DNA of 51,391 nt from NCBI RefSeq assembly GCF_000716445.1, contig NZ_JNWK01000059.1, positions 1 through 51,391 of the forward strand, written 5' to 3'. Made by a program: the position numbers and the translations under genes. This DNA is from Streptomyces wedmorensis. Its GTDB lineage: Bacteria; Actinomycetota; Actinomycetes; Streptomycetales; Streptomycetaceae. The notes beneath the pieces are model-generated. The model ran no database searches. It was not told where the DNA came from and saw only the letters and a program-made list of their open reading frames with translations. Shown piece after piece: positions 1 through 41,322 of the stretch. Position 1 is the stretch's first letter. The number at the start of each line of letters is the position of its first letter.

Positions 1-99
1 TACCCCGTGGAGCGCATGATGCGCGACGCCAAGATCACCCAGATCTACGAGGGAACCAACCAGGTTCAGCGCATCGTGATGGCCCGCAACCTCCCGTAA
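1..99 (+). CDS. Acyl-CoA dehydrogenase, C-terminal end only
   Basis: The window opens inside this gene; only the last 32 codons and the TAA stop are present. The visible residues include the YEGTNQVQR motif found at the end of acyl-CoA dehydrogenases, whose Glu is the catalytic base in the medium/short-chain enzymes. These flavoenzymes oxidise acyl-CoA to enoyl-CoA and pass electrons to electron transfer flavoprotein. That fits the next two genes: etfB begins 28 bases downstream on the same strand, so the three are probably co-transcribed. Chain-length specificity cannot be judged from this fragment. Family assignment is secure; everything upstream is outside the window. Confidence 0.9.
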
Positions 100-1909: not shown

Positions 1910-1929
1910 CCGTCCGGTCCCGCACACGA

Positions 1930-1970
1930 AAGGGGCGGTGGGTGGCACTCTGTGCCACCCACCGCCCCTT
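1930..1970. terminator. Bidirectional terminator between etfA and the DUF35 gene
   Basis: This is a perfect 19-base inverted repeat (1930-1948 with 1952-1970) separated by the three bases TCT. It lies between two convergent genes, is flanked by A-rich and T-rich ends, and should work in both directions. The tip of the stem, TGGCAC-TCT-GTGCCA, also fits the operator found twice further on (see findings). The terminator role is the simpler reading. Confidence 0.85.
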
Positions 1971-1988
1971 CGTCGTCGCTGACGGTCG

Positions 1989-2375
1989 TCAGAACCAGCC
2001 GTCGAGCGCGACCTCGTCGCAGAGCCGGACCACCGGCCTGCGCCCGGTCTCCCCGACGCCGGAGGAGAGCTTGACCCGCACCCCGGGGCGCACCGCGTGG
2101 AGCGGCCCGTCGACCCGGCAGCGGACCACGAAGCCCTCCGTCATGTGCACCGGCCAGAGGTCCGCGTCGGCCGCGGCGACCCCGCGGCGTACGGATATCA
2201 CGCCCTCGCCGTCGCTGAGTTCGGGCGCGAGGTCGGTCGACCCGCAGGTCGGACAGAGCAGGCGCTGGAACGTCGTGCTGTGGCACCAGCGGCAGCGCTG
2301 GAAATAGAGCTCGGAGTCCGGGGTCGACTCGTCGTCCTGGACGGCGGTCCCGCTCCTCAGTCCCGTGTGGAACAC
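1989..2375 (-). CDS. DUF35/OB-fold protein with N-terminal zinc ribbon
   Basis: The 128-residue protein has a rubredoxin-like zinc ribbon (Cys28, Cys31, Cys41, Cys44) followed by a small beta-rich OB-fold. This is the layout of DUF35 proteins, which usually partner thiolases or other acyl-CoA enzymes and may bind acyl-CoA. The GTG at 2375 is chosen because it has a strong AAGGAG eight bases upstream; a longer reading would run through the operator. No thiolase is adjacent, but a TetR gene lies 118 bases upstream on the same strand, and the intervening promoter carries a palindrome shared with that regulator's own promoter. Function is inferred from family only. Confidence 0.8.
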   Translation of the reverse strand: MFHTGLRSGTAVQDDESTPDSELYFQRCRWCHSTTFQRLLCPTCGSTDLAPELSDGEGVISVRRGVAAADADLWPVHMTEGFVVRCRVDGPLHAVRPGVRVKLSSGVGETGRRPVVRLCDEVALDGWF

Positions 2376-2423
2376 GATGCCTTCTCCTTGCACTCGGCGG
2401 CTCGACCGTGGCAAGGCAAAGAT

Positions 2424-2440
2424 ATGGCACTGAGTGCCAT
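2424..2440. promoter_or_regulatory. Palindromic operator upstream of the DUF35 gene
   Basis: ATGGCAC-TGA-GTGCCAT is a perfect inverted repeat with 7-base arms. It lies about 50 bases upstream of the DUF35 start, in an A/T-rich stretch that looks like the promoter. The same core, GGCAC-N3-GTGCC, recurs before the neighbouring TetR gene, which makes that TetR the likely binder. This is inference from motif sharing. Confidence 0.7.
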
Positions 2441-2493
2441 CAAATAAAGACCTGAGTTCCCTCAATCCTGGATACTGAGATCCCCGGCGGCCC

Positions 2494-3201
2494 TCAGCCC
2501 TCGCCGAGGCTCGACTCGACCTCGCGCACCACGCGCCACATCGGGGTGGACCGCTTGGTGATCACCACGACGACGTCCTCGGTCTCCTCGGCCGGCGCCT
2601 CCGACGCCGCGTCCGGGCTCCAGGTGGCGCGCACGAACTCCAGGGCCCGGTCGACCTCCGCCTGCGGGTCGCCCTCCCCGCCCGAGCGGAGCCAGTGGCG
2701 CAGGGCGTGGTTGTGGGCGGCGACGACGGCCGCCGCGACGACGTTGGCCCGCAGGGTGCCGTCCCTGCGGTCGGCCCAGCGGGTGCGGAGGTAGTCGCCG
2801 AGGGTCTTCTCGTACCGCCAGACGACCGAGAGTTCGTAGGTGCGCAGTCCGGCCACCTCTCGGGTGAGCCGGTAGCGCTGCACGGAGAAGGTCGGGTTCT
2901 CCGAGTACATCCGCATGACGAGCCGGGCGGCGTCGCAGACCCGCACGACGGGGTCGTCGGAGTCGGCGCTCGCCGCGAGGAACCGGGTCATGTCGGCGAG
3001 GCACTGCTCGTGGTCGGGGAAGACCACGTCCTCCTTCGACGGGAAGTACCGGAAGAAGGACCGCCGGCCGACCCCCGCGAGCGTGACGATGTCGTCGACG
3101 GTGGTCTGCTCGTAGCCCCGCTCCAGGAAGAGCTGAAAGGCGGCGGCGATGAGGGAGTCCCGCATCGCGGGCTTCGTGGAGTTCGTCGACGCAGTTCCCA
3201 T
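2494..3201 (-). CDS. TetR family transcriptional regulator
   Basis: The 235-residue protein has a TetR DNA-binding domain at residues 10-60, with recognisable helices LIAAAFQLFLERGYEQTTV and GVGRRSFFRYFPSKEDVVF. A ligand-binding region follows. Family members sense small molecules, often acyl-CoAs or drugs, and release DNA on binding. It lies between an SDR gene and a DUF35 gene on the same strand. Two copies of a GGCAC-N3-GTGCC palindrome sit 33-70 bases upstream of its start and one precedes the DUF35 gene, so autoregulation plus control of the DUF35 gene is likely. The setting among fatty-acid genes suggests an acyl-CoA ligand, but that is a guess. Confidence 0.88.
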   Translation of the reverse strand: MGTASTNSTKPAMRDSLIAAAFQLFLERGYEQTTVDDIVTLAGVGRRSFFRYFPSKEDVVFPDHEQCLADMTRFLAASADSDDPVVRVCDAARLVMRMYSENPTFSVQRYRLTREVAGLRTYELSVVWRYEKTLGDYLRTRWADRRDGTLRANVVAAAVVAAHNHALRHWLRSGGEGDPQAEVDRALEFVRATWSPDAASEAPAEETEDVVVVITKRSTPMWRVVREVESSLGEG

Positions 3202-3233
3202 GGCCCGAACCTAACACCCGAAACGGCCCCCCG

Positions 3234-3271
3234 CGGCACTTGGTGCCGGACGAATCCGGCACCGAGTGCTC
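3234..3271. promoter_or_regulatory. Double palindromic operator upstream of the TetR gene
   Basis: There are two adjacent sites: CGGCAC-TTG-GTGCCG at 3234-3248 (perfect) and CGGCAC-CGA-GTGCTC at 3257-3271 (imperfect). Together they also form a larger inverted repeat of 15-base arms with one mismatch around CGAA at 3251-3254. The position between the SDR stop and the TetR start suits autoregulation. The core matches the operator at 2424-2440. Confidence 0.7.
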
Positions 3272-3289
3272 TTACGAGGGTACGGAGGT

Positions 3290-4051
3290 TCAGCGGGGGG
3301 CCATGCGCAGGGCACCGTCCATCCGGATCGTCTCGCCGTTGAGGTAGTCGTGCTCGGCGATCATCGTGACCAGCCGGGCGTACTCCTCCGGGCGGGCGAG
3401 GCGCTGCGGGAAGGTCACGCTCGCGGCGAGCCCGGCCCTGACGTCCTCGCCGAATCCGGCCATCATCGGGGTGTCGACGATGCCGGGGGCGACGGTGACG
3501 ACCCGGATGCCGAACTGCGCGAGGTCGCGGGCGGCGGTGACGGTCATCCCGGCGACGCCGGCCTTGGAGGCCGCGTACGCGATCTGGCCGACCTGGCCCT
3601 CGAACGCGGCGATCGAGGCCGTGTTCACGACGAGACCGCGCTGCCCGTGCTCGTCGGGCTCGTGGCGGGCGATGGCCTCGGCGGCGAGCCGCATCACGTT
3701 GAACGTGCCGAGCAGGTTGACCTCGAGCACCGTACGGAACAGGTCGAGGTCGTGCGGGCCCTTGCGGCCCAGGATGCGGGCGGAGGGGGCGATGCCGGCG
3801 CAGTTCACGGCGAGCCGCAGCTCGGCGCCGTCGGCGTCGATCGCGGCCAGGGCCTCGCGCACCTGCTCCTCGTCGGTGACGTCGGCGGCGAGCAGCCGGA
3901 CGCCCTCCGGCAGCTGCCCCGCGGCGGCCACGGCCTTGCCGAGGTCCAGGCCGTAGACGGTGGCGCCGCGGGCGGCGAGCGCGGCGGCGGTGGCGGCCCC
4001 GAGACCGGAAGCGGCACCGGTGACGAGAGCGGCGGAGCCGGCGATGTCCAT
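3290..4051 (-). CDS. SDR dehydrogenase, 3-hydroxyacyl-CoA dehydrogenase type II-like
   Basis: The 253-residue short-chain dehydrogenase has the nucleotide-binding glycine motif TGAASGLG at residues 11-18, NCAG at 83-86, and the catalytic set Ser146, Tyr159, Lys163 (YAASK). The sequence around NTASIAAFEGQVGQIAYAAS and VAPGIVDTPMM resembles the HSD10 group, which oxidises 3-hydroxyacyl-CoA or hydroxysteroids with NAD+. An acyl-CoA substrate fits the neighbourhood but is not proven. The ATG at 4051 has GAGGAG about five bases upstream and begins directly with the Rossmann fold; the reading frame extends further upstream but that part shows no family similarity. Confidence 0.9.
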   Translation of the reverse strand: MDIAGSAALVTGAASGLGAATAAALAARGATVYGLDLGKAVAAAGQLPEGVRLLAADVTDEEQVREALAAIDADGAELRLAVNCAGIAPSARILGRKGPHDLDLFRTVLEVNLLGTFNVMRLAAEAIARHEPDEHGQRGLVVNTASIAAFEGQVGQIAYAASKAGVAGMTVTAARDLAQFGIRVVTVAPGIVDTPMMAGFGEDVRAGLAASVTFPQRLARPEEYARLVTMIAEHDYLNGETIRMDGALRMAPR

Positions 4052-4126
4052 GGAACTCCTCGTTCGTGTCGTGCGGGTGCGACCCTGCCGCCGGGATGGC
4101 CGCCGGATCGGGCGCTTGCCCGCGGA

Positions 4127-4235
4127 GGACCGCGCGGTCCGCGCGATCTGCGCCGCCCACCATAGAACCGTGGGCCGCGCCCCCGGAAGCGGAGGCCGAG
4201 CGCTCGGCGAGGAAGTAGTCGACCGGTCGTAGACT
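4127..4235 (+). promoter_or_regulatory. Palindromes and leaderless promoter of the TetR gene at 4242
   Basis: The divergent spacer holds two perfect palindromes, GGACCGCGCGGTCC (4127-4140) and CGACCGGTCG (4220-4229). A TAGACT hexamer at 4230-4235 ends six bases before the ATG at 4242. A -10 box at that distance predicts a transcript starting at or next to the ATG, a leaderless arrangement common in actinobacteria. CGACCGGTCG abuts the -10 and is the best candidate for an autorepression site. Confidence 0.5.
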
Positions 4236-4241
4236 CGGGCC

Positions 4242-4853
4242 ATGGGGCGAACGAGTGACGCGCGGGAGCGCATCCTGAGCGCCGCGGAGACGCTGATGCT
4301 GTCCCGCGGCTACGCGGCCCTGGGCGTGGCCGAGATCTGTGCGGCGGCCGGCGTCCCGAAGGGGAGCTTCTACTACTTCTTCGCCTCCAAGGAGGAGCTG
4401 GCGCTCGCCGTCGTGGACGAGCACTGGACCGCTCGGCGCGCCGAGTGGGACCGCGCGCTGGCCCCGGACGTCCCGCCGCTCGCCCGGCTGCGGCGGCTGT
4501 ACGAGTCCACCGGGGACGGGCTGCGCGCCGACCGGGAGAGCTGCGGCGTGGTCACCGGCTGCCTGCTCGGGAACCTGGCCCTGGAGATGAGCACCCGGAC
4601 GGAGAGCGTCCGCGCGCGGCTGCGGGAGGTCTTCGACGAGCAGGTCTCCCTGGTGGAGGGGACCGTCGCCGAGGCCCGCGACCGCGGCGAGGTCACGGTC
4701 GCCGACGCCGGGGCCGCCGCGCGCGCCCTGGTCGCCCAGCTGGAGGGCCGGGTCCTCTTCGCCAAGCTGTACGACGACCCGGGCCGCCTCGACGTCCTGT
4801 GGGCGGACTCGCTCGCCCTGCTCGGTGCGGAGGCGGCCGCCGCGGCCGGCTGA
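4242..4853 (+). CDS. TetR/AcrR family transcriptional regulator
   Basis: The 203-residue protein has an N-terminal TetR helix-turn-helix (ARERILSAAETLMLSRGYAALGV, then GVPKGSFYYFFASKEEL, residues 6-50). Its C-terminal region (GVVTGCLLGNLALEMSTRTESVR) resembles the LmrA/YxaF/NemR-like group, which respond to electrophiles or drugs. It is divergent from the SDR gene (190-base spacer) and convergent with cynS five bases after its stop. The SDR gene is therefore its likeliest target besides itself. No Shine-Dalgarno precedes the ATG, but a -10-like hexamer does, which suggests a leaderless mRNA. Confidence 0.88.
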   Translation: MGRTSDARERILSAAETLMLSRGYAALGVAEICAAAGVPKGSFYYFFASKEELALAVVDEHWTARRAEWDRALAPDVPPLARLRRLYESTGDGLRADRESCGVVTGCLLGNLALEMSTRTESVRARLREVFDEQVSLVEGTVAEARDRGEVTVADAGAAARALVAQLEGRVLFAKLYDDPGRLDVLWADSLALLGAEAAAAAG

Positions 4854-4858
4854 GCCCG

Positions 4859-5329
4859 TCAGAAGGGCCTGGTCGGCAGGTACTTGCCGTCGAGCGTGAT
4901 GACCGCGCGCTCGCCGCCCTCGGGGTCGGCAACCTTCTTCACGTCGAGCCTGAAGTTGATCGCGGAGATGATGCCGTCCCCGAACTGCTCGTGGACCAGG
5001 GCCTTGAGCGTGGTGCCGTAGACCTGGAGCATCTCGTGGAACCGGTAGATCGTGGGGTCGGTGGGGACGGCGCCGTCGAGGGAGCCGCGGGTGGGGATCG
5101 TGCGCAGCAGCCGCTCCGCGTCCTCGTCCAGGCCGAGGAGTCCGGCGACGGCCTTCGCGGCGGGCGCCGGCAGGGCGTGCTGGCCGAGTACGGCGGCGGT
5201 GGTGAAGGCGACGGAGAGACCGGCGGCGTCCGCGATCTCCTGCCAGGTCAGGTCCTTGCGGTCCTTGGCGTCGACGGCGGCGACGGCGAGGGCCTGGCGG
5301 GCGGTGGGGTCGAACTGGGCGTGCACCAT
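4859..5329 (-). CDS. cynS: Cyanate hydratase (cyanase)
   Basis: The 156-residue cyanase converts cyanate and bicarbonate to carbamate, which breaks down to ammonia and CO2. Length and catalytic residues match the Escherichia coli enzyme exactly in numbering: Arg96 and Glu99 in YRFHEM and Ser122 in [11 protein letters not shown]. The N-terminal helical domain ([11 protein letters not shown]) is the usual degenerate helix-turn-helix-like fold, and active enzyme is a decamer in the family. It follows the carbonic anhydrase gene by 52 bases on the same strand, the classical pairing in which the anhydrase replenishes the bicarbonate consumed by cyanase. A divergent LysR gene completes a cyn locus. 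Confidence 0.97.
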
Positions 5330-5381
5330 GAGTGGTACGTCCTTCCTTCTCGGGCTTCGGTGTGTGCGGGGTGTCGGGTGG

Positions 5382-5981
5382 TCAGGCGGCGAACGAGGAC
5401 CGCGCCGCGGTGGGGAGCTCCTCGACGGTGCCGTCGGCGATGTCGAAGACCCAGCCGTGCAGCCGTACGGCCCCTTCGGCCAGGGCGCGGGCCACCGAGG
5501 GGTGGGTGGCGAGGTTGGCCAGTTGGGCGGTGACGTTCTCCCGGACGAGGGCGGCCACGTCTCCCCGCCGTCCGGCCGCGGCGGTACGGGCCAGCGACGC
5601 GTCGGCGTGGCGCAGCCAGGCGGCGACGGCGGGTGCGCCGGTCAGGTCGTGGCCCTCGGCGAGCGCGGTCATGGCGCCGCAGGCGGAGTGTCCGCAGACG
5701 ATGACGTCCCGGACGCCGAGGACGGCGACGGCGTACTCGACGGCGGCGGTCACCCCGTCGGTGCCCGGGGTGTGGGCGGGGACGAGGTTGCCGGCGGTGC
5801 GGACGACGAAGAGCTCGCCCGGGTCGGTCTGTGTGATCAGTTCGGGTACGACGCGGGCGTCCGAGCAGCCGATGAAGAGCGTTCCGGGGCGGTGGGCGGT
5901 GGCCAGGCGGGCGAAGAGCCCGGCCTTGGCAGGGAAGACCTCCCGCTGGAAGCGGGCGATTCCCTCGGCGAGATGAGGCAT
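5382..5981 (-). CDS. cynT: Beta-carbonic anhydrase of the cyanate operon
   Basis: The 199-residue beta-class carbonic anhydrase has zinc ligands Cys39, His98 and Cys101 and the Asp41-Arg43 dyad of CSDAR. It interconverts CO2 and bicarbonate; beside cyanase its role is to return the CO2 released from cyanate to bicarbonate. The ATG at 5981 is chosen because GGTGAGG lies just upstream; a GTG at 5996 would add five residues and consume that ribosome site. It is the first gene of a two-gene operon with cynS. A CTATAG-containing segment shared with cynR lies 25-75 bases upstream. Confidence 0.95.
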
Positions 5982-6005
5982 GTCCTCACCCTGCACGACC
6001 AGTGG

Positions 6006-6057
6006 CTATAGCGTCCAAGACCTGCTGTCGATCTCAGCTATAGATGCGATCTATAGT
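6006..6057. promoter_or_regulatory. cynT/cynR divergent operator-promoter
   Basis: CTATAG occurs three times (6006-6011, 6038-6043, 6051-6056). The last two form the perfect inverted repeat CTATAGATGCGATCTATAG (6038-6056), a typical LysR box. Its right arm contains TATAGT (6052-6057), which can act as the cynR -10 only seven bases before its ATG. The first copy lies where a -10 for cynT would be expected. This suggests CynR represses its own start and activates cynT from one site. Confidence 0.7.
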
Positions 6058-6064
6058 CGGTGTC

Positions 6065-6976
6065 ATGCAGCCGGAACTCCGCCATCTCCGCTATCTGCTC
6101 GCCGTCGCCGAGCACGCGAACTTCACGCGGGCCGCCGAGGAGCTCCGCATCGCCCAGCCCACGCTGTCGCAGCAGATCCGGCAGCTGGAGAAGGCGCTGG
6201 GGACACGGCTCCTGGACCGCGGCGGCCGTGCGGTGCGGCTCACGGACGCCGGGGAGGCGTACGCCCGCTATGCCCGGCGGGCCCTGCGGGAGCTGGCGGC
6301 GGGCGAGCGGGCGGTGCTCGACGTGCACGACCTCTCCCGCGGTCACCTGCGCCTGGCCGTCACCCCCACCTTCACGGCCTATCTCACCGGCCCGCTGGTC
6401 GCCGGTTTCCACATCCGCCATCCGGGCATCGGCGTGGAGGTGCGGGAGCTGCCCCAGGACCGCATCGAGGCCGAACTCCTCGCCGACCGCCTCGATCTCG
6501 GCGTCGCCTTCCAGGGCGCCCACCTCCCGGGCATCGAGGCGACCGGGCTGTTCACCGAGACCCTCGGGCTCGTGGTGGGCCCCGGGCATCCCCTCGCGGG
6601 CCGCACCGATCCGGTCCCGGTCACGGAGTTGACCGAGCATCACCTCGCTTTGCTCAGCCGGGACTTCGCCACCCGGCTGCACATCGACGCGTACGTCTCC
6701 GAGCACCGCGTCCGGCCCCGGATCGCGGTGGAGACCGATTCCGTCAGCGCGCTGACGGAGGTCGTCCGCCGCACCGCCCTCGCCACCGTCCTGCCGGACG
6801 CGGTCACCCGGGACCAGCCCGGCCTCAGCCCCGTCCCGCTCTCCCCCGCCCTGCCGGCCCGCGGTGTCGTCCTCCTCCGGCGCGCGGCCGGCTACCGGAG
6901 CGCGGCCGCCGGCGCCTTCGCCGAACTGGCCGCGCGGTGGGGCGTCGAGGAGGCCGGGGGTCAGCCGATCGGATGA
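6065..6976 (+). CDS. cynR: LysR family regulator of the cyanate operon (CynR-like)
   Basis: The 303-residue LysR-type regulator has the winged helix-turn-helix at residues 1-60 (LRHLRYLLAVAEHANFTRAA, then QPTLSQQIRQLEKALG) and a periplasmic-binding-protein-like effector domain in the rest. It is transcribed away from cynT-cynS, the normal arrangement for CynR, which activates the operon when cyanate binds. The ATG at 6065 is preferred: an upstream in-frame ATG at 6044 lies inside the operator palindrome. No ribosome site is visible, and a TATAGT -10 seven bases upstream suggests leaderless mRNA. The name rests mainly on gene context. Confidence 0.88.
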   Translation: MQPELRHLRYLLAVAEHANFTRAAEELRIAQPTLSQQIRQLEKALGTRLLDRGGRAVRLTDAGEAYARYARRALRELAAGERAVLDVHDLSRGHLRLAVTPTFTAYLTGPLVAGFHIRHPGIGVEVRELPQDRIEAELLADRLDLGVAFQGAHLPGIEATGLFTETLGLVVGPGHPLAGRTDPVPVTELTEHHLALLSRDFATRLHIDAYVSEHRVRPRIAVETDSVSALTEVVRRTALATVLPDAVTRDQPGLSPVPLSPALPARGVVLLRRAAGYRSAAAGAFAELAARWGVEEAGGQPIG

Positions 6977-7118
6977 CCCGGGGGTCCACCGTTGCGGGCG
7001 CCGGACGCAGCCGGGACGACGACGGACGGTGAGGGAACGGCCACCAGGATGGGAGACGGAGCGGGCCACGGCCTCCCGGCGGCCCGCGCGATCACCCGAG
7101 TCCACTGGAGCAGACCCC

Positions 7119-7472
7119 ATGAAGCACGTGAAGAAGACCTCGCGCACCCGTGTCGTGACCGGTGGCGCGATCGTCGCCGCTCTCGCCCTCGGCGGCTTCG
7201 GTGCCTACTCCGCGAGCGCCACCGGCGAGGACACGGCGGCCGCCCCGGTCGCCGCCGTCGCCAAGGCCGACGCCAAGAACAAGAACACCACGCGGTCGAC
7301 GCACCTGACGATCGAGGCCGCGACGAAGGCCGCGCAGGCCACCCTGGACGCCGCGGAGAAGGAGAACCAGCGCGTCTCCGTCGCCGTCGTCGACAGGCCG
7401 CGGCTGATGACGAGGCGCTGGATCTGGTTGGTGCCCTCGAAGATCTGCATGATCTTGGCCTCGCGCATGTAG
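7119..7472 (+). pseudogene. HbpS/GlcG-like secreted heme-binding protein, 3'-truncated
   Basis: The ORF starts with ATG after a GGAG ribosome site and encodes a signal peptide (KKTSRTRVVTGGAIVAALAL, ending near ASA at about residue 33). The start of an HbpS/GlcG (DUF336) domain follows: THLTIEAATKAAQATLDAAE then RVSVAVVD at 86-92. At codon 92 (7392-7394) the similarity stops abruptly. The remaining 25 codons are the antisense of an acyl-CoA dehydrogenase 3' end. A normal HbpS domain runs roughly another 90 residues (GN..V...AP..S), all missing. The fragment overlaps the dehydrogenase ORF by 268 bases. The product, if made, would be an unfolded secreted stub. Either a deletion or an assembly chimera explains this. 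Confidence 0.8.
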
Positions 7473-8530
7473 CGCTCGACGGGGAACTCGCGGGTGTAGC
7501 CGTAGCCGCCGAGGACCTGGACGGCGTCCGTGGTGACCTTCATCGCGGTGTCGGTGGCGATGAGCTTGGCGGCGCTGGCCTGGCGGCTGAAGGGGCGGCC
7601 GAGGTCGCGGCGGCGGGCCGCGTCCAGGTAGGTGGCGCGGGCCGCGTCGACGGCGGCGGCCATGTCGGCGAGGAGGAAGCCGAGGCCCTGGTGGTCGACG
7701 ATCCTGCGGCCGAAGGTGGTCCGCTCGTTGGCGTAGTCGACGGCCGCGTCGAGGGCGGCCTGGGCGAGGCCGGTGGCGCAGGCGGCGATGCCGAGGCGGC
7801 CGCTGTCCAGGGCGCTGAAGGCGATCTGGAGGCCCTGGCCCTCGTCCCCTATGAGCCGGTCGGCGTCGAGGAGGGCGCCGTCCCAGTAGGCGGAGGTGGT
7901 GGGGACGGCCTGGAGGCCCATCTTGCGCTCGGGCGCGCCGAAGCTCAGGCCCTCGGCGTCGCCGGGGGCGAGGAAGCAGGAGATGCCGTGGCTGCCGGGG
8001 GCGGTGCGGGCGAAGAGGGCGTAGAAGGCGGCCTTGCCGCCGTGCGTGATCCAGGCCTTGGTGCCGGTGATCCGGTAGCCGCTGCCGTCGTCCTGCCGCT
8101 CGGCCTTGCAGCTGAGCGCGGCGGCGTCGGAGCCCGCCTGCGGCTCGGAGAGGCTGTAGCCGCCGATGGTGCGGCCTTCCAGCATGGCGGGGAGCCAGCG
8201 CTCCTTCTGCTCCGCGGTGCCGAAGGTGTACAGGGGGTGGCAGGCCAGCGTGTGGACGCTGGTGGCGACGGCGACGGCCGCCCAGCGCGCGGCGAGTTCC
8301 TCGAGGACCTGGAGGTAGACCTCGTAGGGCTGGCCGCCGCCGCCGTACTCCTCGGGGTAGGCGAGGCCGAGCAGCCCGGCCTGGCCGAGGGTGGTGAAGA
8401 GACCTTCGGGATAGGTCTCGGCGGCCTCGTGCTCGTTCACCCGCGGAGAGAGCTCCTTGTCGGCGATCTCCCGGGTGAGGGCGATGAGGTCCGCTGCCTC
8501 GGGGGTGGGAAGCAGACGGTCGACATCCAT
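7205..8530 (-). CDS. Acyl-CoA dehydrogenase with aberrant C-terminal tail
   Basis: Residues 1-379 form a complete acyl-CoA dehydrogenase: SLSEPQAGSDAAAL (127-140), the FAD-contact segments TKAWITHGG and RTTFGRRI, and FEGTNQIQR with catalytic Glu365. The natural protein should stop just after VISRGL (374-379). Instead the frame continues for 62 codons through the antisense of the hbpS-like 5' end, ending at 7205. The native stop codon has therefore been lost at the junction near 7391-7396. The core enzyme may still fold; it would oxidise acyl-CoA and donate to EtfAB. The ATG at 8530 has CTGGAG upstream. A divergent TetR gene with a shared palindrome probably controls it. Confidence 0.88.
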   Translation of the reverse strand: MDVDRLLPTPEAADLIALTREIADKELSPRVNEHEAAETYPEGLFTTLGQAGLLGLAYPEEYGGGGQPYEVYLQVLEELAARWAAVAVATSVHTLACHPLYTFGTAEQKERWLPAMLEGRTIGGYSLSEPQAGSDAAALSCKAERQDDGSGYRITGTKAWITHGGKAAFYALFARTAPGSHGISCFLAPGDAEGLSFGAPERKMGLQAVPTTSAYWDGALLDADRLIGDEGQGLQIAFSALDSGRLGIAACATGLAQAALDAAVDYANERTTFGRRIVDHQGLGFLLADMAAAVDAARATYLDAARRRDLGRPFSRQASAAKLIATDTAMKVTTDAVQVLGGYGYTREFPVERYMREAKIMQIFEGTNQIQRLVISRGLSTTATETRWFSFSAASRVACAAFVAASIVRCVDRVVFLFLASALATAATGAAAVSSPVALAE

Positions 8531-8555
8531 GTGCGACTCCAGCGGCGCGCAAAGT

Positions 8556-8581
8556 GGTACTGGGGAAGGTACTGCAGTACC
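8556..8581. promoter_or_regulatory. TetR operator between acyl-CoA dehydrogenase and TetR genes
   Basis: GGTACTGCAGTACC at 8568-8581 is a perfect 14-base palindrome. A further GGTACT half-site lies 12 bases away at 8556-8561. The site is 26-51 bases upstream of the dehydrogenase ATG, in the 116-base divergent spacer, so it can serve both genes. Binding by the adjacent TetR protein is inferred from position. Confidence 0.65.
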
Positions 8582-8646
8582 GTTGAGAGTAGCGCAGAAG
8601 GGTGCCGCCGTAACTCCCAGGAGGGCCGGCCTGGAATACTGGCCGG

Positions 8647-9252
8647 GTGATCGAGACCTCCGCCGCCGACGCCCCGAAACTCACGGGCCGGGGAGCGGCG
8701 CGCCGCTCCGCCCTCTTCGAGGACCTCGTCGCCCTCCTCGTCGGCGAGGGTTTCGCCCGGCTGACGCTCGACGACCTGGCCGCGCGCCTGCGCTGCTCGA
8801 AGCGGACCCTGTACGGCCTCGCGGACAGCAAGGAGCAGCTGGTCCGGGCGGCGGTCGTGCACTTCTTCCGGCGCGCCACGGCCCGCGTCGAGGCGGTCCT
8901 CGCCGCGGCGTCCGATCCCGCCGAGCGGCTCGCCGCCTACCTGCGGGCGGTGTCGGCCGAGCTCGCGCCGGTCTCCCCGCAGTTCTTCGACGACGTGGCC
9001 GCCTTCGAGCCGGCGGCCGAGGTGTACGAGCGCAACACCCGCGCGGCGGCGGGCCGGGTCCAGCAGCTCATCGAGGAGGGCGTGCGGGCCGGGGTCTTCC
9101 GTGAGGTGCACGTCACCTTCGCGGCCGACGTCATCTCCTCCGTGATGGTCCGCATCCAGCGGCGTCAGGTGGCCGCGGCCACCGGCCTCGCCGACGCGGA
9201 GGCGTACGAGCAACTGGCCGAGCTGCTCCTCAGCGGCCTCCGCAAGGCCTGA
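8647..9252 (+). CDS. TetR family transcriptional regulator
   Basis: The 201-residue regulator has a TetR helix-turn-helix at about residues 15-65 (LFEDLVALLVGEGFARLTLDDLA, then CSKRTLYGLADSKEQL) and an alpha-helical ligand domain. It is divergently transcribed from the acyl-CoA dehydrogenase at 7205-8530 across 116 bases carrying a GGTACTGCAGTACC palindrome, which points to local control of that gene and itself. The GTG at 8647 has no Shine-Dalgarno; an AATACT hexamer ends six bases before it, so the mRNA may be leaderless. The ligand is unknown; an acyl-CoA is plausible from the target. Confidence 0.87.
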   Translation: MIETSAADAPKLTGRGAARRSALFEDLVALLVGEGFARLTLDDLAARLRCSKRTLYGLADSKEQLVRAAVVHFFRRATARVEAVLAAASDPAERLAAYLRAVSAELAPVSPQFFDDVAAFEPAAEVYERNTRAAAGRVQQLIEEGVRAGVFREVHVTFAADVISSVMVRIQRRQVAAATGLADAEAYEQLAELLLSGLRKA

Positions 9253-9351
9253 GCCCGGCGCGGAGCCGGGTCGCGCACCGCCCGGGTGTCTCCTTGGGGT
9301 CCCACCCCAGGCGGTACGTTTGAGGTGAGGACTACTTCACCAGGGGGCCCA

Positions 9352-10668: not shown

Positions 10669-10693
10669 GCGCACGCCGCCCGGCCCTGTCGGA

Positions 10694-12871
10694 TCAGGGG
10701 TACGAGACCACCGTGGACGGCACGGTGGAGGTGCCCGAGGTCGGGGCGCCCACGTCGTTGATGACGTGCTCGTACTGTCCGTTGCCGCCGAGGGACACGA
10801 CGAGCAGGTCGTGGAACCTGACGCCGGGCTTCACCGGGGCGCGGAAGCCGTGGTCCTGACGGATCGTCGGGTCGACGTTGTAGTAGCAGTAGCTGCCGAG
10901 TCCCCAGCCCTCGTGGGTGGTGACGGAGTCGTCGACGCGGTAGGCGGCGTATCCCTTGTGCGGTCCGTCCTGGACGGCCGCCTGGTTCGGCGCGTCGTAG
11001 GCCTTCTCGTTCTGGAAGAAGATCGTGCGGCCGCGGTCGCCGAACCACTCGACGTCGTACTTGTTGAAGTGCTCGACGAACAGGCCGGTGGCCAGGACGT
11101 CGTCGCCGTACACGCGGACGCCGTAGTCGGCGCGGTTGGTCTCCCAGCCGACGCCCTCGCCGTGGTCGGCGCGCCAGACCCAGGTGTGGTCGACGATGGT
11201 GTCGTCGCTGTGGACCGCCATGGCGACGGTGGCCTTGCCGGCGCCCGCTCCGCCGACGCGGAGGTACACGTCCTGGACGGTGGTGGGATCGGCGGCGTGG
11301 TCGGCGGCGGAGTTCTGCGCGCCGATCTCCAGCAGGACCGGGGAGTTGACCGGTCCCGCGTCGATGAGGAAGCCCGCGAGCCGGACGCCGTCGACGTCGG
11401 CGACCTTCATCGCCGTCACGCCGTTGTCGGGGATGATCGTGGCGAGGCCGAGGCCGAGGACGATCGTGCCGGGGCGGTCGACCTGGAGGGGCTGGTCGAC
11501 GTGGTAGACGCCGGGGGTGAACAGCAGGTGGAGGCCCTGGCGGAGGGCGGCGTTCATGGTGGCGGCGGTGGTGCCGGGCTTGACCACGTAGAAGCCGCTC
11601 AGCGGGATGGACTGTCCCTGCGGGGTGCCCGAACCCCAGCTGGTTCCGCGGGCGTTGACCCGCTTGGCCGGGGCGAAGACCTTGTACTGGCCGCCTTCCC
11701 AGTACAGGAAGGGCTTCTCCCGGGAGACGGGGGTGGTGTCGAGCGTGGTGTAGCGGGGCTCGGGGAAGCTCTGCGCCGGGGCGCCCTCGACGCCGGAGAA
11801 GACCTGGTTCCACACGCTGTTGGACCAGCCGCCGATGGCGCTGTCGCGGGTGTACCACTGCTGCTGCGAGTAGTTTCCGACCTGGCCGTCGATCTTCGAG
11901 TCGGCGATGTAGCCGCCGCTGGCCCAGCCGTAGCCGTCGGGGGCGAGGTTGAGACCGCCCCTCACGTGCATGCGGCGGAACGAGGAGGCCTGTGAGACGG
12001 CCCATCGGTCGGTGCCGCTGACGGGGTTGAGGGCGAGGTTCTCGGCGGCGCGCCAGAAGTTCTGGGTGGCGTTGCCGTTGAACCAGCCGGCGTCGACGGT
12101 CACGTCGCCGTTGATCGTGGTGTCGTCGGGGCGCAGCCCGAGGCCGGCGATCTGGGTGTAGAAGCCGATCTGGGCGTTGAGGCCGTTGTACGTGCCCGGC
12201 TTGAAGAGGAAGGCGTGCCGTCCGTTGCCGAACTGGGCCGACTCCTGCTGGGTGAAGACCTCGTCCAGCTTGGCCTGGATGCCGGGCGTGGACGGGTCGA
12301 AGACGTGCACGTTCGGGCCGAGGTCGCCGCCGCCGGGCAGGACCGGGCCGCCGTCGGCGGAGCCGTACACCTGGAACTCCCAGAGCGAGTAGCCGTATCC
12401 GGTGGCGCGGGTGGTGCCGTACACCCGGACGTAGCGGGCGGTGCCGGTGACGGGGAGGGACTCGTTGCCGCCGGGGCCGGCGGCGGTGCTGTAGGCGCTC
12501 GTCCAGGTGGTGCCGTCGGTGGAGAGCTCGATGCGGTAGGCCTTGCCGTACGCGGTCTCCCAGCGCAGGTCGACCCTGCTGAGCGCGGCCGGGGATCCGA
12601 GGTCGACCTGGATCCACTGCGGGTCGGCGAAGGCGCTGGACCAGCGGGTGCCGGGGTCGCCGTCGACGGCGGCGGTGGCCGGGGTGCCGCCGTTCTCCTG
12701 GCTGGAGGCCGTGGCCGGCTTGCCCTGCGAGAGCAGGACGGGCGCCGCCGCGGCGGGGGGTGCGGCGACGAGCGCGAGCAGGCCGGCGAGGAGCGCCGTG
12801 ACGAGTGCGGCTGCGGTGGTGCGGTGCCTGGGGCGTGGGGGTGGCGCGAGACGGATGCCGACTGCGGGCAT
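10694..12871 (-). CDS. Secreted discoidin-domain parallel beta-helix protein, probable polysaccharide-active
   Basis: The 725-residue protein starts with a signal peptide (basic N-terminus, hydrophobic TAAALVTALLAGLLALVAA, cleavage near residue 43). A discoidin/F5-8 type C carbohydrate-binding domain follows at about 45-165 (SQGKPATASSQENGG, DGDPGTRWSSAF, WIQVDLG). A long region (about 180-720) rich in short G/N/D turns (TINGDVTVDAGWFNGNA, GLGLATIIPDNG) looks like a right-handed beta-helix of the pectate-lyase/GH55-like kind. Related proteins in actinobacteria and fungi are often labelled coagulation factor 5/8 or, wrongly, adenylyl cyclase. I cannot name the substrate. The ATG at 12871 has AGGAG eight bases upstream. 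Confidence 0.75.
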   Translation of the reverse strand: MPAVGIRLAPPPRPRHRTTAAALVTALLAGLLALVAAPPAAAAPVLLSQGKPATASSQENGGTPATAAVDGDPGTRWSSAFADPQWIQVDLGSPAALSRVDLRWETAYGKAYRIELSTDGTTWTSAYSTAAGPGGNESLPVTGTARYVRVYGTTRATGYGYSLWEFQVYGSADGGPVLPGGGDLGPNVHVFDPSTPGIQAKLDEVFTQQESAQFGNGRHAFLFKPGTYNGLNAQIGFYTQIAGLGLRPDDTTINGDVTVDAGWFNGNATQNFWRAAENLALNPVSGTDRWAVSQASSFRRMHVRGGLNLAPDGYGWASGGYIADSKIDGQVGNYSQQQWYTRDSAIGGWSNSVWNQVFSGVEGAPAQSFPEPRYTTLDTTPVSREKPFLYWEGGQYKVFAPAKRVNARGTSWGSGTPQGQSIPLSGFYVVKPGTTAATMNAALRQGLHLLFTPGVYHVDQPLQVDRPGTIVLGLGLATIIPDNGVTAMKVADVDGVRLAGFLIDAGPVNSPVLLEIGAQNSAADHAADPTTVQDVYLRVGGAGAGKATVAMAVHSDDTIVDHTWVWRADHGEGVGWETNRADYGVRVYGDDVLATGLFVEHFNKYDVEWFGDRGRTIFFQNEKAYDAPNQAAVQDGPHKGYAAYRVDDSVTTHEGWGLGSYCYYNVDPTIRQDHGFRAPVKPGVRFHDLLVVSLGGNGQYEHVINDVGAPTSGTSTVPSTVVSYP

Positions 12872-12929
12872 GGCTCGAACTCCTGACGGGAGAGGGGAGG
12901 TTGGACGGGAGTGCGCGCGCTCCGCCACA

Positions 12930-13012
12930 GATGCTCATGGCTGGCCGGATCGGGGTCAAGGCATAGGACACCACTTTTCTTTTGAGTTGCATTAAGCATC
13001 GAAAGAGGAGCC
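12930..13012 (-). promoter_or_regulatory. A/T-rich upstream region of the secreted beta-helix gene
   Basis: This stretch is markedly richer in A/T than its surroundings and includes TGCATTAAGCA, an imperfect palindrome near 12990. It is the only candidate promoter/operator for the leftward gene at 10694-12871. No exact -35/-10 can be fixed. A sugar-responsive repressor, such as the nearby ROK protein, is a possible binder. Confidence 0.35.
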
Positions 13013-13025
13013 CTCCCCCACGGAA

Positions 13026-13057
13026 CGCCCCGGAGCCGGGTCGACGGCCCCGGGGCG
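13026..13057. terminator. Hairpin downstream of the broken lectin gene
   Basis: CGCCCCGG (13026-13033) pairs with CCGGGGCG (13050-13057) across a 16-base loop, 15 bases after the stop at 13072 on the minus strand. There is no U-run. A modest terminator candidate. Confidence 0.4.
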
Positions 13058-13071
13058 CGGACCACCGGCCC

Positions 13072-13565
13072 TCAGGCGAGGTGCCAGTCGTAGACGATCT
13101 CGTACACCCCGCCGCACTGCTCGACCCGCAGGGTGAGCGGGCTGTTCACGGAGGGGGGTGGCGGGCGAAGTGCCCCGGGTCGTCGACCTGGAGGGTGCGG
13201 GGGATCGGGGTGAACGGCTCGCCGGCGAGACCCGACCTGACCGTGTCGTGGTGCCAGAAGGTGGACCAGACGTGGTGGTCGTGCCCCAGGACGAAGAGGT
13301 CGAGCTGATCGGAGCGGCGGGACACGGCCGCCACCCGCTGGGCCGGGTCGAAGACGGCCTGTCCGGGCACCGGGAACCAGTCGGCCGCCCAGCCCGCCCG
13401 GGCGCTCCAGAAGTGCGTCCACACACGCCGGTCGTTGCCCACGGCGAACAGGTCGAGATGGTCCCCGGAACGGGACACCGACGTGACCTGGCCACCCGGG
13501 TCGAAGGCGGCCGCGCCGGGAACGGTGAACCATTCGGCGTTGCGGAGCCGGGGCCCGCCCGACAC
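13072..13565 (-). pseudogene. Truncated, frameshifted beta-propeller lectin-like gene
   Basis: From a possible GTG at 13565 the frame encodes two clear copies and parts of a third of a motif: W-[FP]-x-VPG-x-A-x-FDP-x3-V-x2-VSR-x2-D-x-LDLF-x2-G-x-D-x2-VW-x2-FW. This is the pattern of seven-bladed PLL-type propeller lectins, so most N-terminal blades are missing. The frame stops at 13146 right after a run of six C (coding strand; G6 at 13152-13157). Adding one C would continue smoothly into VNSPLTLRVEQCGGVYEIVYDWHLA-stop, ending at 13072 in the other frame. It lies 17 bases after xdhC on the same strand with no ribosome site. A remnant of a secreted lectin gene is the best reading; a sequencing error could explain only the frameshift. 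Confidence 0.6.
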
Positions 13566-13582
13566 GGTCCGAGGGACGGGTC

Positions 13583-14719
13583 TCAGGCGACGGAGCCTAT
13601 CCGGCCGTCCGGCTCGCGGGGGCCGTCGTGGTGGATCGGGGTGTGGGCGCCGGTGAGGGAGCGGCCGCTGCCGCCCCGGCGGCTGGCGACGATCTCGGCA
13701 CCGATCGAGAGGGCGGTCTCCTCGGGCGTACGGGCACCGAGGTCGAGGCCTATCGGCGAGCGCAGCCGGGCGAGTTCGAGTTCGGTGACGCCGACCTCGC
13801 GGAGCCGCTCGTTGCGGTCCTCGTGGGTGCGGCGGGAGCCCATCGCGCCGATGTACGCGACGGGAAGCCTGAGGGCGGCCTGGAGGAGGGGCACGTCGAA
13901 CTTGGCGTCGTGGGTGAGCACGCACAGGACCGTGCGGCCGTCGACCTCCGTCGACTCCAGGTAGCGGTGGGGCCATTCGACGACGATCTCGTCGGCCTCG
14001 GGGAAGCGGGCCGGCGTCGCGAAGACGGGCCGCGCGTCGCAGACGGTGACGCGGTAGCCGAGGAACTTGCCGACCCGGACGAGGGCGGCGGCGAAGTCGA
14101 TGGCACCGAAGACGATCATGCGGGGGGCGGGGACCGAGGACTCCACCAGCAGGGTCAGCGGCTGTCCGCAGCGGCTGCCGTCCTCGCCGATCTCCACGGT
14201 GCCGGTACGGCCCGCGTCGAGCATCGCGCGCGCCTCGCCCGCCGCGGTGCGGTCCAGTTCCGGGTGGCCGCCGAGCCTGCCCTCGTACGAGCCGTCGGGG
14301 CGGACCAGGAGGGCCGTGCCGTGCAGTTCGTCGGGTCCGTCGACGATGCGGGCCAGGGCCGCCGCCTCCCCCGTGGCGGCGGCCGCGACCGCGGCGGGGA
14401 AGACCCCGCCGCGGACCGGGGTGACGAGGATGTCGATGATGCCGCCGCAGGTCAGACCGACCGCGAAGGCGTCCTCGTCGCTGTATCCGAACTGCTCGAC
14501 GACGGTCTTGCCGTCTTCGAGGGCCTGGACGCACAGGTCGTAGACCGCGCCCTCCACACACCCGCCGGAGACCGAGCCGATCGCCGTGCCCTCGCTGTCG
14601 ACGGCGAGGGCGGCACCCGGCTGGCGGGGCGCGCTGCCGCCGACGGCCACCACGGTGGCGACGGCGAAGGCGCGTCCCTGCTCGACCCACCGGTGCAGCT
14701 CTTCGGCGATGTCCAGCAT
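13583..14719 (-). CDS. xdhC: XdhC family molybdenum-cofactor maturation protein
   Basis: The 378-residue XdhC-type protein belongs to the family that binds molybdenum cofactor, promotes its sulfuration and inserts it into xanthine dehydrogenase. The N-terminal XdhC/CoxI domain (VVAVGGSAPRQPGAALAVD, then GSVSGGCVEG at residues about 24-57, with the usual Cys) and a C-terminal Rossmann-like domain (MIVFGAIDFAAALVRVGKFLGYRV) are both intact. The ATG at 14719 has GAGGAG about eight bases upstream. It follows the NCS2 permease gene by 43 bases on the same strand and lies downstream of the xanthine dehydrogenase operon, so it is part of the purine-catabolism block. Confidence 0.92.
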   Translation of the reverse strand: MLDIAEELHRWVEQGRAFAVATVVAVGGSAPRQPGAALAVDSEGTAIGSVSGGCVEGAVYDLCVQALEDGKTVVEQFGYSDEDAFAVGLTCGGIIDILVTPVRGGVFPAAVAAAATGEAAALARIVDGPDELHGTALLVRPDGSYEGRLGGHPELDRTAAGEARAMLDAGRTGTVEIGEDGSRCGQPLTLLVESSVPAPRMIVFGAIDFAAALVRVGKFLGYRVTVCDARPVFATPARFPEADEIVVEWPHRYLESTEVDGRTVLCVLTHDAKFDVPLLQAALRLPVAYIGAMGSRRTHEDRNERLREVGVTELELARLRSPIGLDLGARTPEETALSIGAEIVASRRGGSGRSLTGAHTPIHHDGPREPDGRIGSVA

Positions 14720-25195: not shown

Positions 25196-25314
25196 GGGGC
25201 ACCTCACGGGCACGACGGTGCGGGCGGCTGACGCCTCCGACTCTAGTCGCCCCGGGGGCCGCGGGTGCCTCGTCGACCGAGCCCGCCGCGGCGGCGGGCC
25301 TCCCGGGGAGTGCC

Positions 25315-26325
25315 TCAGCCCTCCGAGCCCGCGAAGTGCTCCCGCACCAGGGACTGGACGACGGTCAGGTCCTGGGCGATCAAGGCGGCGAGGAGGGCGG
25401 TGTGTTCGGCGGCGTCGGCGACGAGGTCGCCGTGCCGGAGGGCGGGGGCGCTGATCAGGGGCCACTGGGAGCGGCGGTGGAGGTCGTCGGCGACGGCGAG
25501 GAGCTGGGTGTTGCCGGCGAGGGAGAGGACCGCGCGGTGGAAGGCGCGGTCGGTCTCGGCGTAGTGGGCGCGGTCCCCCCGTGCGGCGGCCGCCGCGGTC
25601 GCCTCGGCGAGCGGCCGGAGCTCGGCCCAGCGCTCGGCAGGGACGGTGCGGGCGAGCCGCAGCATGACGGGCACCTCGATGAGCGCCCGGACCTCGGCGA
25701 GTTCGGCGAGCTCGCGCGGGGTCCGCTCGGTGACGCGGAAGCCGCGGTTCAGCACGACCTCGACGGCGCCCTCGACGGCCAGTCGCTGCATGGCCTCGCG
25801 CACGGGCGTCGCGGAGACCCCGAAGCGCTCGGCGAGGGCGGGCGCGGAGTACACCTCGCCGGGCACGAGCTCGCCGCCGACGAGAGCGGTGCGGAGGGCG
25901 TCCAGGACCTGCCCGCGCACGGAGTGCCGCCGCACCTCCCGGGGGGCGCGGGCCGCCGGCCCCCCGTGGGTGTGCTCGCCGCGGGCGACCGGGACGTCAC
26001 CCGTCCGGGCGGGATCGGGGACGTACGCGGGACCTCGGGCGCCGTACCCGTCACGGCCGTCCTCCGCCACGGGGGCGCGGGCGCCGTACCCGTCACGGCC
26101 GTCCTCCGCCACGGGGCCGCGGCCGCCGTACCCGTCACGGCCGTCCTCCGCCACGGGGCCGCGGCCGCCGTACCCGTCACGGCCGTCCTCCGCCACGGGG
26201 GCGCCTGCCGTGCCGTCGGGGTGTCCGGGCTCGGCGGGACGGGCCTGTTCGGGCACCCGTGCGGCGTCGCCGAAGGGCGGGGACGGTCGGTCCGTCGCCC
26301 GCTCGCGCGCTGCGCTCTGCTCCAC
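25315..26325 (-). CDS. GntR family regulator (FadR/FCD type) with repeat-bearing N-terminal extension
   Basis: The C-terminal 220 residues are a normal FadR-subfamily regulator: winged helix-turn-helix (RGQVLDALRTALVGGEL, FGVSATPVREAMQRLAVEG) followed by an all-helical FCD ligand domain. Before it lies an unusual region of about 115 residues rich in Gly, Asp, Arg and Pro. This contains four 14-residue repeats of the type PVAEDGRDGYGxRx, encoded by a 42-base tandem repeat. The GTG at 26325 is supported by an AGGAGG six bases upstream; an ATG at 26388 is the alternative. A start inside or after the repeats would give a standard-length regulator, but no comparable ribosome site was seen there. 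Target genes are unknown. Confidence 0.85.
   Translation of the reverse strand: MEQSAARERATDRPSPPFGDAARVPEQARPAEPGHPDGTAGAPVAEDGRDGYGGRGPVAEDGRDGYGGRGPVAEDGRDGYGARAPVAEDGRDGYGARGPAYVPDPARTGDVPVARGEHTHGGPAARAPREVRRHSVRGQVLDALRTALVGGELVPGEVYSAPALAERFGVSATPVREAMQRLAVEGAVEVVLNRGFRVTERTPRELAELAEVRALIEVPVMLRLARTVPAERWAELRPLAEATAAAAARGDRAHYAETDRAFHRAVLSLAGNTQLLAVADDLHRRSQWPLISAPALRHGDLVADAAEHTALLAALIAQDLTVVQSLVREHFAGSEG
26041..26208. repeat. 42-base tandem repeat, four copies, inside the GntR gene
   Basis: Units begin at 26041, 26083, 26125 and 26167 and are nearly identical. The period is 14 codons, so the reading frame is kept if the copy number changes. It encodes a low-complexity segment before the DNA-binding domain. 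Confidence 0.9.
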
Positions 26326-37995: not shown

Positions 37996-38478
37996 GTGGG
38001 TGTGTGGCAGCTCCTGATGATCGCGACGGTGATGCTGCTCGGTCTGTTCGGGGTCCTGGCCCCGGGTGTGCCGGGGACGTGGCTGGTGTGGGCGGCGATG
38101 CTCTGGTGGTCGCTGCACGAGCGGACGGGCCTCGCCTGGATCCTGCTCGTCTCCTCGACCGGTCTGCTGCTCCTCACCCAGGTGATCGTCTGGCAACTGC
38201 CACCCCGCCGCTTCCGGGGCGTCGGCATCACCCGCCGGATCGTGGCGTACGCGGGGGTGGGCGCGCTCCTGGGCTTCGTCCTGGTCCCCGTGATCGGCGC
38301 GATCCCCGGCTTCGTCGGCGGGATCTACCTCGCCGAACGGCTCCGGCTCGGCGGCCACGGCCAGGCCCGCGCGGCCACCCGGACCGTCATGCGCGCCGCC
38401 GGCACCAGCGTCCTCGTCGAGCTCTTCGCCTGCCTGCTGATCGTGGGCGCCTGGGCGGGCGCGGTCATCTGGGGCTGA
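37996..38478 (+). CDS. DUF456 small membrane protein
   Basis: The 160-residue hydrophobic protein has about five membrane segments, the DUF456 signature (LLGLFGVLAPGVPGTWLVW at about 15-33) and a Gly-rich second half (GAIPGFVGGIYLAERLR) resembling a glycine-zipper segment. Its function is unknown. The GTG at 37996 gives the expected N-terminus; no strong ribosome site precedes it and an alternative start upstream would lie in repeat sequence. It is convergent with the ada-alkA gene. Confidence 0.8.
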   Translation: MGVWQLLMIATVMLLGLFGVLAPGVPGTWLVWAAMLWWSLHERTGLAWILLVSSTGLLLLTQVIVWQLPPRRFRGVGITRRIVAYAGVGALLGFVLVPVIGAIPGFVGGIYLAERLRLGGHGQARAATRTVMRAAGTSVLVELFACLLIVGAWAGAVIWG

Positions 38479-38501
38479 GCTCCGTCACCCGTTCGGTCTA
38501 G

Positions 38502-38533
38502 GGCCTGTCTGACAATTCGCGTCGGATCAGGCC
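38502..38533. terminator. Weak hairpin between DUF456 and ada-alkA genes
   Basis: GGCCTG (38502-38507) and CAGGCC (38528-38533) pair across 20 bases. The right arm overlaps the ada-alkA stop codon. A low-strength terminator candidate between convergent genes. Confidence 0.35.
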
Positions 38534-41271: not shown

Positions 41272-41322
41272 GGGGGACCCTTCAAGGGGCGGCCCCGGCG
41301 CCGAGAGAAGGCAGAGTGGAGA

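Follow-up and report, generated by a model that had tools for sequence, protein, structure and literature searches.

Streptomycetes sense haem and redox state through the HbpS-SenS-SenR system, in which HbpS is secreted, forms octamers, binds haem and iron, and acts as a modulator of the kinase SenS (PMC3754957, PMC4991794). The second described system that matters here is a technical one: it is standard that neighbouring pieces of a de Bruijn assembly graph overlap by a fixed length (PMC2821320). In this work we look at an hbpS-like gene that meets an acyl-CoA dehydrogenase gene tail-to-tail within a contig of 51,391 bases, here called the window (the whole stretch of DNA that was analysed). 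The join between the two genes is most likely an assembly error at a repeated gene, in which case it represents no natural deletion and encodes no new protein. The features concerned are the following.

7119-7472, forward strand: hbpS-like open reading frame of 117 residues (frame read directly)
8530-7205, reverse strand: acyl-CoA dehydrogenase open reading frame of 441 residues (frame read directly)
7119-7394, forward strand: hbpS-like gene, native codons 1-92, with the 3' half missing (similarity to relatives G015 and G004)
7295-7393, forward strand: 99-base stretch where likeness to the relatives' senS-locus hbpS starts; likely a contig end inside a repeat
7393-7394, no strand: the join, most likely an assembly splice (blastn breakpoint against G015 and G004)
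7394-8530, reverse strand: acyl-CoA dehydrogenase, native codons 1-379, with the normal last codons and stop missing (Pfam, relatives)
7205-7393, reverse strand: tail of the dehydrogenase frame, 62 codons and a stop, antisense to hbpS; likely spurious (frame read directly)
7395-7472, forward strand: tail of the hbpS frame, 25 codons and a stop, antisense to the dehydrogenase; likely spurious (frame read directly)

The initial annotation had ended the native genes at codon 92 and codon 379 and had counted 25 and 62 foreign codons with a 268-base overlap of the two frames. Direct reading returns the same counts (the overlap being 7205-7472), and the native limits proved exact to the base. Codon 92 of hbpS, GAC at 7392-7394, is its last native codon, and Leu379, read from CAG on the forward strand at 7394-7396, is that of the dehydrogenase; base 7394 is compatible with both genes, and the border lies at 7393/7394. 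Up to base 7394 the DNA is 88.5% identical to G015 and 86.3% to G004 by blastn, and the start of the hbpS product shares 88% of its amino acids with the intact HbpS of G015. Pfam found no family in the 92 native HbpS residues alone, PF03928 included, and placed this family on the intact G015 copy over residues 64-187 (9.2e-31); a search of plasmids with the same 92 residues gave no match. Residues 9-379 of the dehydrogenase carry PF02771, PF02770 and PF00441, the N-terminal, middle and C-terminal domains. Nothing in the analysis bears on a new function.

An alignment with related genomes, which the initial annotation had called for, shows that the two genes are normally separated. In blastn, the DNA left of the join is matched over 6957-7394 by G015 (one contig) and 4847-7394 by G004 (five contigs), and the DNA right of it over 7394-9258 and 7395-9253, respectively. 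These flanks lie 1,011 bp apart in G015 and 2,649 bp apart in G004. Between them G015 has the remainder of hbpS (its 3' half) and an ankyrin gene, and G004 has these two plus a gene in which SPFH and kinase parts are fused; the window therefore lacks sequence that both relatives have. The dehydrogenase stop comes two residues after the departure point Gly-Leu of the window in G015 and three residues after it in G004. An ankyrin gene comes after hbpS in S. aureus NRRL B-2808 (L062), G318, G299 and G162 as well. Root431 (L056) has the SPFH-kinase gene without an ankyrin match, and the interval from hbpS to the dehydrogenase yielded neither gene in G268 and G076. In its true order the locus likely starts with hbpS, may continue with an ankyrin or SPFH-kinase gene, and ends with the dehydrogenase and its normal stop. 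As a separate observation, an SPFH/Band 7 domain fused to a protein kinase domain lies between hbpS and the dehydrogenase at 3320-5008 of L029 (minus strand) and at 6195-7806 of L056.

The window is not the only place in its assembly where this gene is cut. An hbpS search of the assembly returned the window (contig C59), contig C17, where codons 149-192 alone are left, and C5, whose homologue is distant (39% identical); a third close copy lies on C62 beside an ankyrin paralogue. Compared with intact orthologues, the copy on C17 lacks everything from the end of the leader to codon 148 (448 bp missing against G015), and the copy on C62 lacks about codons 21-164. All three close loci are thus cut, and all three are without codons 93-148. 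Six-frame searches with these codons gave no match in the assembly, and they gave matches, some of them weak, in 212 of 392 genomes. We considered that the missing interior might be hidden in small contigs and rejected this, since contigs of 200 bp are present and codons 93-148 were still not found; the assembly may have discarded a repeat contig shorter than 200 bp.

Both senS-like kinases that lie beside hbpS copies, on C17 and C62, are cut as well. The two histidine kinase genes share an exact run of 100 bases, after which both leave the intact kinase sequence at the same base, C17 entering a response-regulator gene and C62 the end of an apparent LysR-type gene on the other strand. The hundredth base, a G, is also the first base on the senR side in G015, which makes the kinase-only run 99. 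This run, with both genes cut at its end, was counted in favour of assembly error as the same signature as that of the join, described below. The kinase region of C17 lacks 252 bp against G015, and its ATPase domain keeps profile positions 3-55 of 111 (3-110 in G015). The senR-side edge has no second exact copy, its best match beyond the kinase repeat being 75% identical (best 40 of 902 candidates). The hbpS edges in C17 (on its leader side) and in C62 do not fit a 99-base rule, which counts against assembly error. We also rejected the idea that C17 and C62 had swapped sequence reciprocally at the kinase repeat they share, since to the left and right of it C17 remains collinear with the G015 locus that corresponds to it. 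These two senS-like loci, each interrupted both within hbpS and at the 3' end of the kinase gene, can be viewed at L136 6700-8700 and L137 5400-6950.

We next consider the position of the left edge of the join. Bases 7295-7393 are identical to the senS-locus hbpS at 90-95 of 99 positions in six of six relatives, and the preceding 60 bases at 37-39 of 60. The left edge, 7393, is 7295 + 98, that is, one assembly-overlap length inside the repeat, a repeat seen in the relatives and not in the assembly itself. An overlap of this length is seen at contig ends that flank rRNA genes: exactly 99 bases are common to C100 and C121, and exactly 99 to C19 and C41. The remaining 10 of the 12 pairs among the eight rRNA-flanking ends have other offsets, with 0-2 shared bases when laid end to end, and the fact that only two of twelve show 99 counts against assembly error. 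In the draft G249, contigs break off in hbpS both before and after its interior, with exactly 99 bases common to the ends at each break; in the draft G291 the shared stretch at such ends is 59. In G270 and G162 the exact tract between hbpS copies begins at the position corresponding to 7295; in the other five genomes compared it begins later, which speaks against assembly error. If the strain's own copies are alike from 7295 on, as comparison with the relatives suggests, the left edge would be the expected contig end of this assembly; the own hbpS interiors are missing, so identity with 7295-7393 is borrowed from relatives, and this too weighs against assembly error. The right edge at 7394 lies at no near-exact repeat of the assembly, where the best other matches are 66-72% identical (best 40 of 1,251 candidates). 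This edge and the lack of any N to mark a join were both counted against assembly error.

Unlinked hbpS copies pair within genomes in six of six relatives compared. The longest exact run shared by two copies of one genome measured 38-382 bases across 13 pairs; it reached at least 122 in eight of them and stayed below 122 (38-111) in the other five, a point against assembly error. Over the DNA of the HbpS domain in six genomes, identity within a genome was 94.2-99.7%, and identity of the same locus between genomes had a mean of 92.4% and a maximum of 96.7% (30 pairs). The unlinked copies were sisters within their genome in six of six cases (support 0.915-0.997). The pair of G268 was dropped from this comparison, its dehydrogenase-locus copy having no anchor; the senS-locus copy of G307 has a raw identity of 94.5% to that of G318 and 94.2% to its own partner. 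Judging from these alignments, the within-genome pairing of unlinked copies was likely caused by gene conversion; among the titles listed, literature searches gave nothing on such conversion of the Streptomyces hbpS. The concerted look of HbpS domains from unlinked loci can be seen by setting L139, L141-L144 and L146 against L154, L156, L158, L159, L162 and L203; before about codon 60, unlinked copies are much less alike. The concerted domains look like a real pattern beneath the probable artefact.

How the gene fares in other assemblies is also informative. Copies were counted at more than 60% identity, a count that excludes distant homologues and one piece of 40 residues in G224. In eight genomes of at most seven contigs, 18 of 20 copies are intact; the two irregular ones are a copy with a partial repeat in G268 and a copy with a stop in G224. 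Seven genomes of at least 10 contigs gave a mixed picture. All copies are intact in G162 (two of two) and G238 (three of three), G299 and G322 each combine an intact copy with a broken one, G143 has broken copies only, and G249 and G291 have copies at contig ends. The intact state of the near-closed genomes and the break of G249 in the same gene were counted for assembly error, and the intact copies in the drafts G162 and G238 against it. The G143 copies (L165, L151, L206; 30 contigs) show an in-frame loss at about codons 106-157 in one hbpS and overlapping partial stretches in a second; these losses may be the same kind of artefact.

Other repeated sequence is also missing from the assembly of the window. 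A 16S search found no match in it, despite a rating of 99.99% complete; the same search found matches in nine of 14 control genomes, and six matches in G015. With a 9.2-kb rRNA-operon query from G015, none of 31 matches touched positions 1913-7107 (best 40 of 733 candidates). Contigs as short as 200 bp were kept, as 12 sampled contigs show, and the missing 16S and rRNA-operon interior together with these kept contigs were counted in favour of assembly error. The rRNA contigs were left open, not joined, which stands against it; a step that joined contigs would therefore have to act on short repeats only.

Taken as an assembly error, the join could have come about as follows. Gene conversion would hold unlinked copies close in sequence along extended tracts of the HbpS domain, such tracts being shown in relatives and presumed for this strain. 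A short-read graph with 99-base overlaps would be unable to place the interior of such a repeat because the unlinked copies pair within genomes, and its contigs would stop 99 bases inside. A later joining step would then have brought the two flanks directly together and left the interior out. The initial annotation had offered an assembly chimera as its second option, and this is now the best explanation, given the 99-base left edge and the other copies cut at the same repeat.

The first option of that annotation was a deletion between two convergent genes, and part of it stands: the two genes do converge, relatives keep them at a distance from each other, and the window lacks both the stop of the dehydrogenase and the 3' half of hbpS. 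A real deletion would have taken these two pieces with the intervening sequence, and left each gene to end in the antisense of the other. The distance between the flanks in relatives and the varying gene content of the interval suit such an event, as does a join that requires at most one shared base and has a right edge away from any repeat. Moreover, the irregular copies in the near-closed G268 and G224 imply that hbpS can be really rearranged. What makes a real deletion improbable is that its left edge would fall exactly 99 bases inside the similarity to the paralogue, 99 being an overlap length of this assembly, and that separate deletions would be required at three hbpS loci and in both senS-like kinases beside two of them, two of these starting from the same base. 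The join is also absent from the listed matches of other genomes: in a search with 7100-7620 against 392 genomes (one per species, all with some match), the window alone spans it among the matches listed, and those of the other 391 genomes extend past it by about 27 bases at most. That the strain truly lost the core of all three copies by breaks in the segment kept alike by conversion, one break giving the dehydrogenase its 62-residue antisense-hbpS tail, is in our view very improbable.

A SalI cloning or ligation artefact, which the initial annotation had left open, would have joined two fragments at GTCGAC, and this motif does lie at the join (7389-7394). The idea finds little to lean on. 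The motif is part of GTCGTCGAC, which encodes a native Val-Val-Asp in the intact hbpS of seven of eight relatives (the pattern missed the eighth, G318), so SalI cloning is not needed to explain it; the dehydrogenase end has no GTCGAC in the two relatives matched by pattern (G015, G268), and the window contains 76 GTCGAC sites. We regard the chance of such an artefact as negligible. An inherited pair of overlapping genes with conserved tails, for which one may cite that each frame is open through the other gene, is equally hard to credit, as no other genome has the arrangement among the matches listed, the dehydrogenase of relatives ends two or three residues after Gly-Leu, and no protein with dehydrogenase residues 372-441 was found at E<=0.001 in about 5.8 billion proteins (1,506 candidates), a search in which the protein of the window is itself unlisted.

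If the join is an assembly error, neither the dehydrogenase of 441 residues nor the HbpS fragment of 117 residues should serve as an example of gene fusion, of antisense-derived tails or of HbpS loss. The same trap may exist in other drafts, with hbpS broken in G143 and at contig ends in G249 and G291.

Other places in the window were compared with G015 and G004. That the assembly is riddled with such joins was considered and not seen in the part checked. Two further gaps against both relatives, near 25235-25315 and 38478-38560, look by eye like whole missing genes, and a third, at 41303/41417-41549, corresponds to about 7.2 kb in G015 and 2.4 kb in G004. At 10687-13583 about 2.9 kb are unmatched in G015 or G004 at the same place and include an open reading frame of 744 residues (10694-12928, minus strand). 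At its very start (window 1-93) the contig cuts into a further acyl-CoA dehydrogenase, within the C-terminal region, and contigs of G076 (L031) and S. griseoluteus (L059) start at about the same dehydrogenase codons.

It is worth setting the locus beside the systems it resembles. The dehydrogenase has the three Pfam domains of its family up to residue 379, and it differs from the family in its last codons and stop, replaced by the 62-residue antisense tail that is likely spurious. With the HbpS-SenS-SenR system, as PMC4991794 and PMC3754957 describe it, contig C17 shares an hbpS remnant next to genes for a senS-like kinase and a response regulator, in an arrangement collinear with that of G015, whereas the copy in the window lies beside a dehydrogenase gene, not senS, and consists of the first 92 codons only. 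A third parallel is with the repeat-induced gaps or collapse of short-read de Bruijn assemblies. As in these, the break lies one overlap length inside a repeat and the interior is lost, and comparable open contig ends are found at rRNA in the same assembly and at hbpS in G249; the window differs in that its flanks are abutted without N and one edge is not at a repeat.
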